From Qipengyuania marisflavi (lineage in GTDB: Bacteria > Pseudomonadota > Alphaproteobacteria > Sphingomonadales > Sphingomonadaceae): DNA of 64,000 nt. Of the stretch, positions 25,714 through 29,689 are shown one piece after another (position 1 is the stretch's first letter; each line of letters starts with the position of its first letter). Made by a program: the position numbers and the translations under genes. The notes beneath the pieces were generated by a model. That model ran no database searches. It was not told the origin of the DNA and saw only the letters and a list, made by a program, of their open reading frames with translations. The stretch is taken from positions 1 to 64,000 of the forward strand of contig NZ_VCAO01000010.1 of NCBI RefSeq assembly GCF_005884405.1, read 5' to 3'.

Positions 25714-26844
25714 TCAGGCTTTGCGCTTGATGCGGAACTTGCGCCGTCCAAGGATCGCTGCGGCGGCAAAGCCGAACAGCGCCATCATCGGCGGGGCGGG
25801 CACATCGGTGCCGCTGGTGGTGCTGACATCGCCCGAGGTCGAGCTGCTGGACGAGGAGGAGGAGCTGGAGGACGTCGAGGTGCTGCTCGAAGAGCTGGTG
25901 CTCGATGTGATATCGCCCGATGTCGAAGTGCTGGTCGATACGTCGCCCGAGGTTGATGTGCTGCTTGAGACGTCGCCCGAGGTCGAGGTGCTGCTTGAGA
26001 CATCGCCCGAGGACGAGCTGGACACATCGCCCGAGCTTGAGCTGGTCGTCGTGCTCGAAACCGCACCGGTTGAAGTCGATACCGAACCGGTGGACGTGGA
26101 TACCGATCCGGTTGAAGTGGACACTGCGCCAGTGGAGGTCGAAACCGCGCCGGTGCTGCTCGATGTCGAGCTTGAGGTCGATACCGCGCCCGTGCTGGTC
26201 GAGCTGGAAGTGGTCACTTCACCCGTGCTGGTGGTCGAGCTAATCCCGCCGGTCGATGTGCTGGTCGAGCTACCACCGGTCGAGGTTGAGGTCGAACTGC
26301 CTCCGGTCGAGGTCGAGGTGCTGACATCGATGTCGATATCGGGCAATTCGCCGCCAGTGGTGGTGGTCGAATTGACGACCACACGGCCGCCGCCACCGCT
26401 TGAACCGCTGAAGAAGCCGCCGAAGAAGCCGCCGCCGAAACCACCGCCGCCGCCATAACCGCCGCCGTATCCGCCACCGGGAATAGAGCGCACGCCGCCG
26501 CCGCCCGATACGGGCGCAGCTGCTGGAAGCGGGGGAACCGGCACGGGGGCCAGCGCGGCCTGATAGGCCTGCGGGCAGACATTGTTCGGCTGGTAAGCGG
26601 CCTGCGGCGATGTTGCCGGGACGCATTCAACCGGGCGGCGCGGAATGCTGCGCGCCTGGCGGACCGGACGGCGCGGGATTGCCCGCGGCACGGCCTTGAC
26701 CTGCTTCACCTGTTTGATCTGCTTGGTCTTGTAGCTGGGCGAATCGGTGATCGGCTTTTCGGCGACATGCACCGCGCCGCCCGCCAGCAACGCGCCACCT
26801 GCCGCGGTGGCCGACAATTTCGCAAGAGCTGATTTAACCGACAT
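25714..26844 (-). CDS. Ser/Thr-repeat surface protein with PEP-CTERM-like tail
   Basis: A 376-residue protein built as an export and surface-display module. It has an N-terminal signal segment (AGGALLAGGAVHVA), a basic Pro/Arg region with two IPRRPV copies, and a Gly-rich stretch (about 113-155). A low-complexity region of about 170 residues follows, made almost only of Ser, Thr and Gly with recurring STSTGG and SSGDV units (about 175-344). The C-terminus has TDVPAPPMMALFGF, a hydrophobic helix, and a basic end GRRKFRIKRK. This resembles the PEP-CTERM sorting tail, with PAP in place of PEP. Such proteins are processed by exosortase and often glycosylated. No exosortase is in the window, and the assignment rests on architecture. 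ATG 26844 has GGAAAG upstream. Confidence 0.72.
   Translation of the reverse strand: MSVKSALAKLSATAAGGALLAGGAVHVAEKPITDSPSYKTKQIKQVKQVKAVPRAIPRRPVRQARSIPRRPVECVPATSPQAAYQPNNVCPQAYQAALAPVPVPPLPAAAPVSGGGGVRSIPGGGYGGGYGGGGGFGGGFFGGFFSGSSGGGGRVVVNSTTTTGGELPDIDIDVSTSTSTGGSSTSTSTGGSSTSTSTGGISSTTSTGEVTTSSSTSTGAVSTSSSTSSSTGAVSTSTGAVSTSTGSVSTSTGSVSTSTGAVSSTTTSSSSGDVSSSSSGDVSSSTSTSGDVSSSTSTSGDVSTSTSTSGDITSSTSSSSSTSTSSSSSSSSSSSTSGDVSTTSGTDVPAPPMMALFGFAAAAILGRRKFRIKRKA
25813..26322 (-). repeat. Degenerate tandem repeats coding for Ser/Thr/Gly
   Basis: Short units related to TC(G/C)-AC(C/G) codons, with periodic GGCGATGTC or GGCG-CGGT inserts, fill the region that codes for the Ser/Thr stretch of the surface protein. 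The periodicity makes the opposite strand open too, which explains a long antisense frame that should not be annotated. Such repeats can expand or contract by slippage. Confidence 0.7.
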
Positions 26845-27049
26845 CGTAAGAACTTTCCGCTGCTTCCCGCCTGACATAACGCCCGGCTGCGATCCGAATG
26901 AACAGAGCGAATCCCCTGTGCTTCGGGTGCTCGCATGTGTTTACCAATCGCACCTTGCGGCAAGAATGTAAATTTTTACCGGAAAAGCGAGGCTTGCGGC
27001 GATGCTGTCCCGCCTTGGGACCACATTGGCGGCAAACCCTAACGGCGCA

Positions 27050-28096
<1,047 letters not shown>

Positions 28097-28110
28097 TCTC
28101 CACCCCTGCC

Positions 28111-28133
28111 GTCATGCTGAACTTGTTTCAGCA
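28111..28133 (+). repeat. Stem-loop repeat, copy 1 (upstream of GIY-YIG gene)
   Basis: TGCTGAA-CTTGT-TTCAGCA forms a seven-bp stem with a five-base loop (28115-28133), preceded by GTCA. It is nearly identical to the reverse complement of a second copy at 28488-28511. The two copies differ at a paired position (G-C here, C-G there), a compensatory change. Confidence 0.75.
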
Positions 28134-28158
28134 ACCATTGCCCGGCTACGGGCGGAGC

Positions 28159-28494
28159 ATGCGGCAAGAGCGCCAACCCTGCGTCTATATTCTGGCGAGC
28201 GGACATTACGGCACGCTCTACATCTGCGTCACCAGCGACTTGCTGGCCCGCATGGTCCAGCACCGTGAAGGCATCACGGGCGGTTTCACCAGCCGCTACG
28301 CAGTCCATCGTCTCGTCCATTTCGAGATGTTCGGCGAAATGGAGCCTGCGATCCTGCGCGAAAAGCAGCTCAAGAACTGGCGACGGCAATGGAAAATCAA
28401 TTTGATCAACGCCGAAAATCCCGAATGGCGTGATCTTGCTGTTGGTTTGGGACTTGACCCGATGCCTCCGCGCACTGCGCCCAATGGATCCTGA
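28159..28494 (+). CDS. Small GIY-YIG-family nuclease-like protein
   Basis: A 111-residue stand-alone GIY-YIG domain. Visible elements are VYILAS (the GIY strand), TLYICVTSDL (the YIG strand, with Cys in place of the usual Gly), the conserved arginine in LLARMVQHR, and the catalytic glutamate in ILREKQLKNW. NPEWRDL near the end is typical of this small family, whose role is not established. The start is ATG 28159 with GGCGGAG just upstream. Its stop codon lies inside the downstream stem-loop copy. The gene is opposite in direction to its ruvB and dsrE neighbours, which suggests insertion into the ruv region. Confidence 0.8.
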   Translation: MRQERQPCVYILASGHYGTLYICVTSDLLARMVQHREGITGGFTSRYAVHRLVHFEMFGEMEPAILREKQLKNWRRQWKINLINAENPEWRDLAVGLGLDPMPPRTAPNGS

Positions 28495-28511
28495 AACAAG
28501 TTCAGGATGAC
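28488..28511 (-). repeat. Stem-loop repeat, copy 2 (overlapping the GIY-YIG stop)
   Basis: ATCCTGAA-ACAAG-TTCAGGAT is a perfect eight-bp stem (28488-28508) followed by GACG. Read on the minus strand it begins CGTCATCCTGAACTTG, matching copy 1 in inverted orientation. The TGA at 28492-28494 inside it ends the nuclease gene. Confidence 0.75.
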
Positions 28512-28535
28512 GGGTGGAAAAGGTGGTTGCCCCGC

Positions 28536-29081
28536 TCAAAACGGGTTCACCGTATAGCCGCGCTGCTGGAGCAGGGCGAAGGCGGTCATGGCGGAGAGTG
28601 CGGTTTCGGTGCCGGCGATCAGTTCGGCTTCGCTGACGCCCTGCGCGGCGGAGCTTTGGCCGCAGACGATGAAGCGCACCCCGTGGTCGAGCATCTGGCG
28701 GATCATGGCGGCGCTGGGATTGTCGCCTTCCTTGCCATGCGCCGCCCAGCCTTCCGGCCCGAGCAGGTCGAGCACGGCCTTGCCATGCACCACCACCTCG
28801 ATGCGCAGGTTTTCCTCAGGCACGCCGTGGGCAACATGCATATTGATGAACCGCGCGGCGCTTTCGATGGCGCGGTTGCGCTTGCCGTCTTCCGCCCCCT
28901 CGGCAACGTCGAAGGCGACTGAGAATTCAGTATCGGCGGGCACTTCGCCAATCCCCTCCACCGGGGCGTGCGGGCCGAAATCGGTGAACACCGGCCCGGT
29001 CCTGAACACACTCATATCCTGCGCCGAGGCGGGGGGAGCAAGGATCAGTGCCGCCGAGGCCATTGCTGCATAAATTTTCAT
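28536..29081 (-). CDS. Periplasmic DsrE-family protein
   Basis: A 181-residue exported protein (signal peptide ending PPASAQ near residue 20) with a DsrE/DsrF-like sulfur-relay fold. The segment VRFIVCGQSSAAQGVSEAEL carries a single cysteine at the position that is functional in DsrE proteins. Its partner and substrate are unknown. ATG 29081 is chosen because GGGGTG stands seven bases upstream; it follows the ruvA stop by five bases, so the two are probably co-transcribed. The functional tie to ruvA is not obvious. Confidence 0.78.
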   Translation of the reverse strand: MKIYAAMASAALILAPPASAQDMSVFRTGPVFTDFGPHAPVEGIGEVPADTEFSVAFDVAEGAEDGKRNRAIESAARFINMHVAHGVPEENLRIEVVVHGKAVLDLLGPEGWAAHGKEGDNPSAAMIRQMLDHGVRFIVCGQSSAAQGVSEAELIAGTETALSAMTAFALLQQRGYTVNPF

Positions 29082-29086
29082 GTTTT

Positions 29087-29689
29087 TCACCCCGAAGCCC
29101 TTTTCAATGCCACCCGGATCAATTCGCCCTCGCCCGCACCTTCGCCCAGCTCGCCTTGTGCCAGTGCCACGGCGCGGGCGGCGACGGCGGGTTTGAAGCC
29201 GAGGTTCTCCAGCGCGCTGACCGCATCGGCGCTTGCCCCGCCAGCCGGGATCGCCGCCATTGCCGCGCCGCCCGGACCGGCTGGCAGTGCGCCTGCCTTG
29301 TCTTTCAGCTCGTTGACGATCCGCCCGGCCAGTTTCGGCCCCACCCCGTTGGCGCGCGCCACCATGGCGGCGTCACCCTGAGCGCAGGCCTGCTGCACCT
29401 CGCCAGTGGTCAGCGCCGACAGGATCGCCAGCGCCACCTTGCTGCCCACGCCCTGCACCTGTGTCAGCAGCCGGAACCAGTCCCGCTCCGCCGCGTCGGC
29501 AAAGCCGAGCAGCCGCATATCGTTTTCGCTCACCTGAAGGTCGGTATAGACCGTGCACCCCTCCCCCGGCTCGCCCAGCGATGCCAGCGTGCGCGAGGAG
29601 CAGTGGACCAGATAGCCCACGCCGCCCACGTCGATCACCGCCCAGTCCGCGCCGGTATCGTCGAGCAATCCCTTGAGCTTGGCAATCAT
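29087..29689 (-). CDS. ruvA: Holliday junction DNA-binding protein RuvA
   Basis: RuvA binds four-way junctions and loads RuvB. The 200-residue protein has the N-terminal OB fold ([11 protein letters not shown]...[13 protein letters not shown]), helix-hairpin-helix motifs ([17 protein letters not shown] and [17 protein letters not shown]), and a C-terminal domain III that binds RuvB. ATG 29689 is the family-conserved start; the longer open frame upstream is not coding-like. No ruvC lies immediately upstream or downstream, so it must be elsewhere if present. Confidence 0.97.

Follow-up and report, generated by a model that had tools for sequence, protein, structure and literature searches.

The window, a 64,000-nt stretch of Qipengyuania marisflavi DNA, contains a compact unit of 403 bp (28110–28512, plus strand; found by sequence search), in which the gene of a small GIY-YIG nuclease lies between two inverted hairpin repeats, with CGTC tags facing outward at both ends. 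In our view, the unit is likely to belong to the CGTC superfamily as a REP-type mobile element, with the GIY-YIG nuclease as its cognate enzyme, which would also drive its movement. More generally, the enzyme that moves CGTC REPs has been missing, and GIY-YIG nucleases of this kind are strong candidates for this role.

The unit and its surroundings

The left repeat, CGTCATGCTGAACTTGTTTCAGCAACCA (28110–28137, plus strand), consists of the tag CGTC, a paired stem of 7 bp with an A·A mismatch at its outer position, the loop CTTGT and the tail CCA. The right repeat, CGTCATCCTGAACTTGTTTCAGGATCCA (28485–28512, minus strand), has a stem of 8 bp (ATCCTGAA/TTCAGGAT) with the same loop and tail. Judging from its unpaired outer position, the left copy is slightly decayed, and a strict search returns only the right copy in the window. 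Between them, the nuclease gene (28159–28494, plus strand; identified by Pfam, alignment and predicted fold) encodes 111 residues plus a stop, and the right repeat overlaps its TGA stop codon (28492–28494). This is the arrangement that an earlier note on the same DNA had described, of two opposite-facing hairpins around a GIY-YIG gene with one of them across the stop, and the coordinates confirm it. The note was also right that the unit runs against the direction of ruvB and dsrE within the ruv region: the host genes that flank it, ruvB (27050–28096) and a DsrE-family gene (28536–29090), are both on the minus strand, as is ruvA (29087–29689), which provides its wider context; all three were identified with Pfam. 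Immediately beside the ruvB start codon, a G-poor tract (28097–28109; 1 G in 13) lies outside the left tag, mirrored by a C-free tract outside the right tag (28513–28525); we annotated both tracts from the local sequence together with a G depletion seen throughout the group (see below).

With its 403 bp, the unit has the commonest length among 50 units (15 of 50; range 353–426 bp). The hairpin core, searched with at most one mismatch, has exactly two matches in the 2.67-Mb genome, both in this unit, and the reversed-pattern control has none. A profile search of the genome returned the window gene as the only stand-alone PF01541 gene; one other PF01541 match, within a 681-aa open frame, is probably UvrC. 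The genome-wide count that the earlier note had suggested therefore places both core copies around the only stand-alone GIY gene. This was the one REP-GIY-REP unit found in the genome, and its copy is intact. Many copies per genome, as is characteristic of CGTC REPs, were not found here, where there are two, as compared to up to 105 in one relative.

The GIY-YIG nuclease

The protein has a single Pfam match, GIY-YIG (PF01541), with an E-value of 4.9e-11 and 43.2 bits against a cut-off of 22.6. Residues Y10, Y21, R31, E68 and N87, which we take to be the catalytic residues of the GIY-YIG superfamily, are invariant across 17 aligned homologues; in the window protein, YIC stands in place of the YIG motif. 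Its AlphaFold model (mean pLDDT 88.7) had the UPF0213 protein BH0048, Slx1 and the GIY-YIG domain of UvrC as best matches in the PDB, with modest scores and none at E ≤ 0.001, and a sequence profile search agreed with the assignment to the GIY-YIG fold. The protein thus has its fold and motif residues in common with stand-alone GIY-YIG proteins (UPF0213; BH0048 structure 1zg2), with the N-domain of UvrC and with Slx1. We know of no report of repeats around the genes of UPF0213/BH0048, UvrC or Slx1. An HUH Y1 tyrosine transposase was not found in the unit, the only Pfam match being GIY-YIG and the best fold matches GIY-YIG proteins.

The hairpins as CGTC REPs

According to the accessible text of the survey by Di Nocera et al. 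(2013; PMC3733652), CGTC REPs are defined by a stem of 8–9 bp starting with A-T, a loop of 4–5 nt, a CCA tail and a CGTC or TGTC tag. The right repeat of the window has this shape (8-bp stem closed by an outer A-T pair, 5-nt loop, CCA tail) and matches family 2 of the superfamily (stem 8, loop 5), while the left repeat has A·A in place of the outermost pair. The same text counts Neisseria dRS3 and Rickettsia RPE-4/6 within the superfamily, reports CGTC REPs from five phyla, chiefly Alphaproteobacteria, and locates REPs mostly downstream of coding regions (PMC3733652). It describes a dedicated transposase as “apparently” absent; in the portions available, no transposase gene is linked to these repeats and the word GIY does not occur, whereas the partner gene here is a GIY-YIG nuclease (PMC3733652).

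The two window copies differ by a paired change beside the CTGAA/TTCAG core, to which the earlier note had drawn attention, and this exchange of G-C for C-G is real. The note took it as a sign that the hairpin is selected as a hairpin, and the covariation test that it suggested agrees with this. Across 171 distinct contexts of the core CTGAACTTGTTTCAG, which are phylogenetically non-independent and in which only positions outside the core were considered, Watson-Crick pairing was seen at pair −1/+1 in 166 (CG 94, GC 72) and at pair −2/+2 in 170 (TA 107, CG 63), far above the 86.5 and 90.5, respectively, that independence of the paired positions would give. Pair −3/+3 was almost fixed as AT (157 of 171 contexts), and outside the stem pairing was at expectation. 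The tag in these contexts was CGTC in 157 cases, as in both window copies, and TGTC in 10. Counts of perfect hairpins with 7-bp stem and 5-nt loop in the window were little informative (12, against 3–10 in five shuffles).

Association of GIY genes and CGTC REPs

Among 149 genomes of the family, 69 contain the exact core, with one match overall for the reversed-pattern control, and 104 contain homologues of the window protein. Of the 44 genomes in which a GIY homologue was close (E ≤ 1e-35), 39 had REPs, as against 30 of the 105 others (Fisher p 8e-12), and REP number correlated with the presence of a close homologue (Spearman 0.60). Three or more repeats were present in five genomes where no GIY homologue was detected (G018, G070, G074, G136, G142), and five genomes with a close homologue had no exact repeats (G008, G029, G081, G091, G107). 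The earlier note had named a repeat that is abundant and unenriched near GIY genes as the outcome that would speak against its proposal, and this is not what we saw.

At 70 GIY loci, comprising the 30 best and 40 hand-picked from lower down (roughly every second row, then scattered rows), left-hand flanks carried the strict CGTC-REP pattern in 43 cases and right-hand flanks in 44, with 37 loci having it on both sides, compared to 12 occurrences in the remaining 336,360 bp of these loci. In named genomes, the best 80 of 574 confirmed loci had a REP on the left in 36, on the right in 41 and on both sides in 26 cases, against a background of 23 REPs in 356,871 bp; these 80, of which many are metagenome bins, are assigned by name to alpha-, beta- and gamma-Proteobacteria, Planctomycetes, Nitrospinae, Bacteroidetes and further groups. 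In a comparison that used no pattern, the two flanks of each gene were matched in inverted orientation, and 113 of 150 loci reached a score of 16 or more, as against 78 of 600 mispaired combinations. The 150 include one place twice, as L045 and as L109; the other 37 of them had no inverted match. Outside the family, further loci gave inverted matches in 11 of 20 cases against 27 of 400 mispaired (20 of 29 new loci, leaving out 6 within the family, L193 and 2 that were too short). Mispaired flanks, background density and distant GIY-YIG genes served as the controls; at 20 such distant genes (E about 1e-14 to 1e-8), we found no strict CGTC REP.

Azospirillum lipoferum and Novosphingobium aromaticivorans are both named, at species level, in the available text of the 2013 survey (PMC3733652). 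On a plasmid of A. lipoferum 4B, a GIY gene is located between sufB and sufC, and pNL2 of N. aromaticivorans DSM 12444 carries a GIY gene whose flanking repeat has the tag and a different tail. The A. lipoferum locus (L346) has a complete hairpin pair on each side of the gene (1387–1471 and 1811–1896) rather than single hairpins.

The hairpins of the units fall into several classes, namely CTGAA-CTTGT, CCGG-CTTG, CCCGC-GNRN with a 4-nt loop, and longer forms such as those of Bradyrhizobium and Vibrio. Every main class that we met has a GIY-YIG partner, including those on the plasmids of the two species named in the survey. Both ends were of the same class in 48 of the 55 units for which both could be called. 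When hairpin class was mapped onto the nuclease tree, 7 changes were required, compared to a mean of 30.2 for shuffled labels (range 24–36), the tree being a quick one of 150 rows (78 of them class-labelled) and 104 alignment columns with 81 of its 147 inner branches open. At the level of whole genomes the match between classes was weak and partly circular: A-type repeats were more numerous than C-type in 17 of 21 A-only genomes, and C-type more numerous than A-type in 5 of 7 C-only genomes (p 0.011).

Ends of the unit

Searching 50 units for a target site duplication of the kind made by DDE-type insertion sequences, we found no direct repeat of four or more bases at the tags and no common 6-mer within 15 bp. 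The composition outside the tags is distinctive, with G at 7–13% in the last 10 nt as opposed to about 33–40% further out, at both ends of the 50 units. It was 7–12% outside 48 REPs with a near partner and 13–15% outside 15 lone REPs. The resulting G-poor zone covers the last 10–15 nt outside the CGTC tags, is symmetric, and occurs in units as well as in gene-less pairs; it could be either part of the unit or part of the target. Beyond the tag, the outer flanks were only marginally complementary.

Gene-less, dispersed and collapsed forms

Pairs of head-outward hairpins without a gene occurred 23 times in 47 REP-centred loci, and 14 of them were exactly 91 bp long, with a 35-bp spacer; since 17 of the 47 loci had been chosen because a pair was visible, we note that in the other 30 loci the 91-bp form accounted for 8 of 15 pairs. 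One locus in a rhizobium-like genus (L303) has kept both subterminal stretches, with the gene deleted and a left hairpin of another class. The gene-less pairs and L303 have the appearance of REPINs or MITEs derived from the unit.

Full units are also dispersed within genomes. For five copies fetched from one genome (G202), the homology of four (L246–L249) extends to within a few bases of TTCGTCAT...ATGACGAA, with flanks that are otherwise unrelated and an identity of 75–88%; the fifth (L245) has no right hairpin and about 50 bp extra in common with L248. In a second genome (G314), three copies (L250–L252) share repeat DNA beyond the unit and may therefore have moved inside a larger repeat, and a fourth (L253) lacks the right end. 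Copies in three further genomes (G343, G196, G302) were little or more weakly similar in the same comparison. Several GIY copies elsewhere carry stops or frameshifts. As a separate observation, the units at L250, L251 and L326 are nested in a larger repeat that recurs in the rhizobium-like genus.

Sphingobium plasmids offer a view of one site in several states. Here, 18 records matched, of which 11 span both genes of the gap between fnrL and a response regulator; most are from one place in Japan. Seven of the 11 contain the full unit of about 383 bp at 100% coverage; of the four that were aligned, one has lost 1 bp within the gene. In TomTYG64 and TomTYG74, the gap holds one symmetric hairpin, tagged with CGTC on either side and imperfect in TomTYG74, and in the last two records it holds no CGTC hairpin. 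Together with the dispersed copies and the gene-less derivatives, these full, collapsed and empty states show that the unit comes and goes. In TomTYG65 (L374) the gap holds an unrelated hairpin, ATTCCAGCCTCCGCTGGAAT, so that it may be a hotspot for different hairpins.

A symmetric double-tagged hairpin also stands in place of the unit at L325. In the family, we found 18 such single hairpins in 14 of the 149 genomes (L378–L393), in addition to those at L325, L371 and L372. In ten of the 18, one position of the outer stem is unpaired, as if these hairpins were composed of halves of two different REPs, and we take double-tagged hairpins to be collapse scars, joined within the hairpin. They could also have arisen by replication slippage alone, with no enzyme, and the single symmetric hairpins at the two sites could be either homing targets or scars.

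Two other settings were tried for the comparison of occupied and empty sites. For Rhizobium plasmids, no comparison at strain level was possible, as all 8 records with a query coverage of at least 80% carry the unit. In the rhizobium-like genus g108 (57 of 61 and 58 of 61 genomes matched), the intergenic region is crowded with other repeats, which blur the exact boundaries of any clean empty site.

History of the ruv site

All 149 genomes have ruvB, and in at least about 15 a GIY gene is located just upstream of it, once in the opposite orientation (coordinates assessed by eye). The two congeners in the sample differ from the window at this site: one (G078) has a spacing of 1 bp between ruvB and dsrE, by reading, with no trace of the unit, and the other (G146) has a single decayed repeat. 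The comparison of ruv spacing among relatives, as proposed in the earlier note, thus did yield a unit-free and a decayed site, with gain and loss indistinguishable between them. Given its presence in at least about 15 of 149 genomes, the gene seems mostly inherited at this place, and the window unit looks old there, with losses. For ten stop-free ruv-site copies (45 pairs), excluding L042 and L043, which contain stops, as well as L037 and L054, the median dN/dS was 0.218 (range 0.086–0.54); by this sequence-based measure, purifying selection acts on these intact copies.

Proposed mechanism and alternatives

In the mechanism we favour, the two inverted CGTC-tagged hairpins would be the ends of the element, and the small GIY-YIG nuclease, its only gene, their cognate partner. 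The nuclease would recognise tag and hairpin together, as single-stranded or cruciform DNA, and nick there, after which the unit, or a gene-less, REPIN-like hairpin pair, would be copied or moved elsewhere through host polymerase, ligase or recombination. We propose such host assistance because GIY-YIG enzymes are hydrolases and form no covalent DNA intermediate. We infer that the nuclease binds and cuts the hairpin and in this way drives the movement. The earlier note had arrived at a related idea by analogy with REP hairpins and RAYT transposases, and the analogy has gained support from the flanking of the gene, the matched ends, the fit of hairpin class to phylogeny, the gene-less pairs, the dispersed copies and the presence and absence of the unit.

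An alternative, which we regard as unlikely, is that hairpin pairs spread by other means and that the GIY gene encodes a homing endonuclease; cleavage of a REP or REP pair by this enzyme would be followed by repair that copies the gene into the cut site. It would explain why the gene is found between two REPs wherever both ends could be called, why gene-less pairs with identical outward ends exist, and why, in two groups that are unrelated (L325 and TomTYG64/TomTYG74), the place of the full unit is taken by one symmetric hairpin. However, the only exact REPs of the window genome belong to the unit itself, and the unpaired outer stem position in 10 of 18 double-tagged hairpins is better explained by collapse of a unit than by an original target. 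Further, units and pairs have their ends and the G-poor outer tract in common, which points to one process.

Purifying selection (median dN/dS 0.218), the single intact copy, its long retention beside ruvA/ruvB and the lack of any other exact REP in the genome would also agree with a domesticated host function, in which genome upkeep or repair would rely on the nuclease to process REP hairpins, and selection would keep the units in place, with little mobility now. We judge this improbable, as the distribution is patchy, with at least about 15 of 149 genomes occupied at the ruv site and congeners traceless (G078) or decayed (G146), and as several copies elsewhere have stops or frameshifts. Still less probable, and disfavoured here, is hitch-hiking, whereby REPs would be terminators or RNA hairpins that spread independently of the nuclease and lie beside GIY genes only because both accumulate in the same intergenic regions. 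The location of REPs mainly downstream of coding regions, as given in the accessible survey text (PMC3733652), would fit, but left and right repeats match each other far above mispaired controls, hairpin class follows the nuclease tree, and none of the 20 distant GIY-YIG genes has a strict CGTC REP.

Relation to known systems

GIY-YIG nucleases are known to serve the spread of selfish DNA in the homing endonucleases I-TevI and Seg and, as a domain, in Penelope-like retroelements. Unlike these, the window unit has no intron, intein or reverse transcriptase, and its ends are hairpin repeats. REP/RAYT elements resemble it in that they have one enzyme gene each and make no target duplication. As in these, the gene of the unit is flanked by inverted cognate REPs; yet the REP/RAYT enzyme is an HUH Y1 tyrosine transposase and the tag GTAG, whereas the unit has a GIY-YIG nuclease and the tag CGTC. 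Since both enzyme and tag differ, we place the unit outside the REP/RAYT family. Short-tagged hairpins, paired repeats and a nuclease gene between repeats are likewise features of REP/RAYT (TnpA-REP) elements and REPINs in the available text of PMC3733652.

In the open-access PMC literature, to which our search was confined (preprints being outside its scope), we recognised no paper that links GIY-YIG genes to REPs. In their accessible text, PMC12306157 does not mention GIY, PMC9465073 contains both words, GIY and REP, in unrelated contexts, and PMC8266576 has nothing on CGTC. As far as its available text goes, the survey of CGTC REPs left the question of their enzyme open (PMC3733652), and this question can now be put to a direct test, namely whether the protein cuts its own hairpin. 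If it does so, GIY-YIG nucleases would represent a second, independent way of moving hairpin repeats beside HUH enzymes, and many genes annotated merely as “GIY-YIG nuclease family protein” would gain a role.

The link to CGTC REPs is not the only one. Among the 20 distant GIY-YIG genes, six (L352, L354, L355, L356, L358, L361) are flanked by another matching hairpin, compared to 4 of 400 mispaired combinations, in part of a CCTTC/CCGTTC...GAAGG type. These cases hint at a second GIY clade with a REP type of its own, which possibly belongs to neither the GTAG nor the CGTC superfamily. The chances seem to us about even that stand-alone GIY-YIG nucleases form a pan-bacterial class of REP-mobilising enzymes, with minimal elements of about 350–530 bp that comprise one nuclease and two hairpins and do without an HUH or DDE transposase, with hairpins specific to each clade, and with double-tagged scars of collapse; the second clade, of CCTTC type, would widen the principle beyond CGTC.

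Minor features of the window

A reverse open reading frame of 148 aa (28093–28539, minus strand) crosses the whole unit, translating the right hairpin as HPELVSGS, and is probably spurious. Beyond ruvB, at 25714–26877 (minus strand), the window encodes a repetitive protein of 387 aa, rich in Ser, Thr and Gly and with no Pfam match, whose C-terminus resembles a PEP-CTERM sorting signal.
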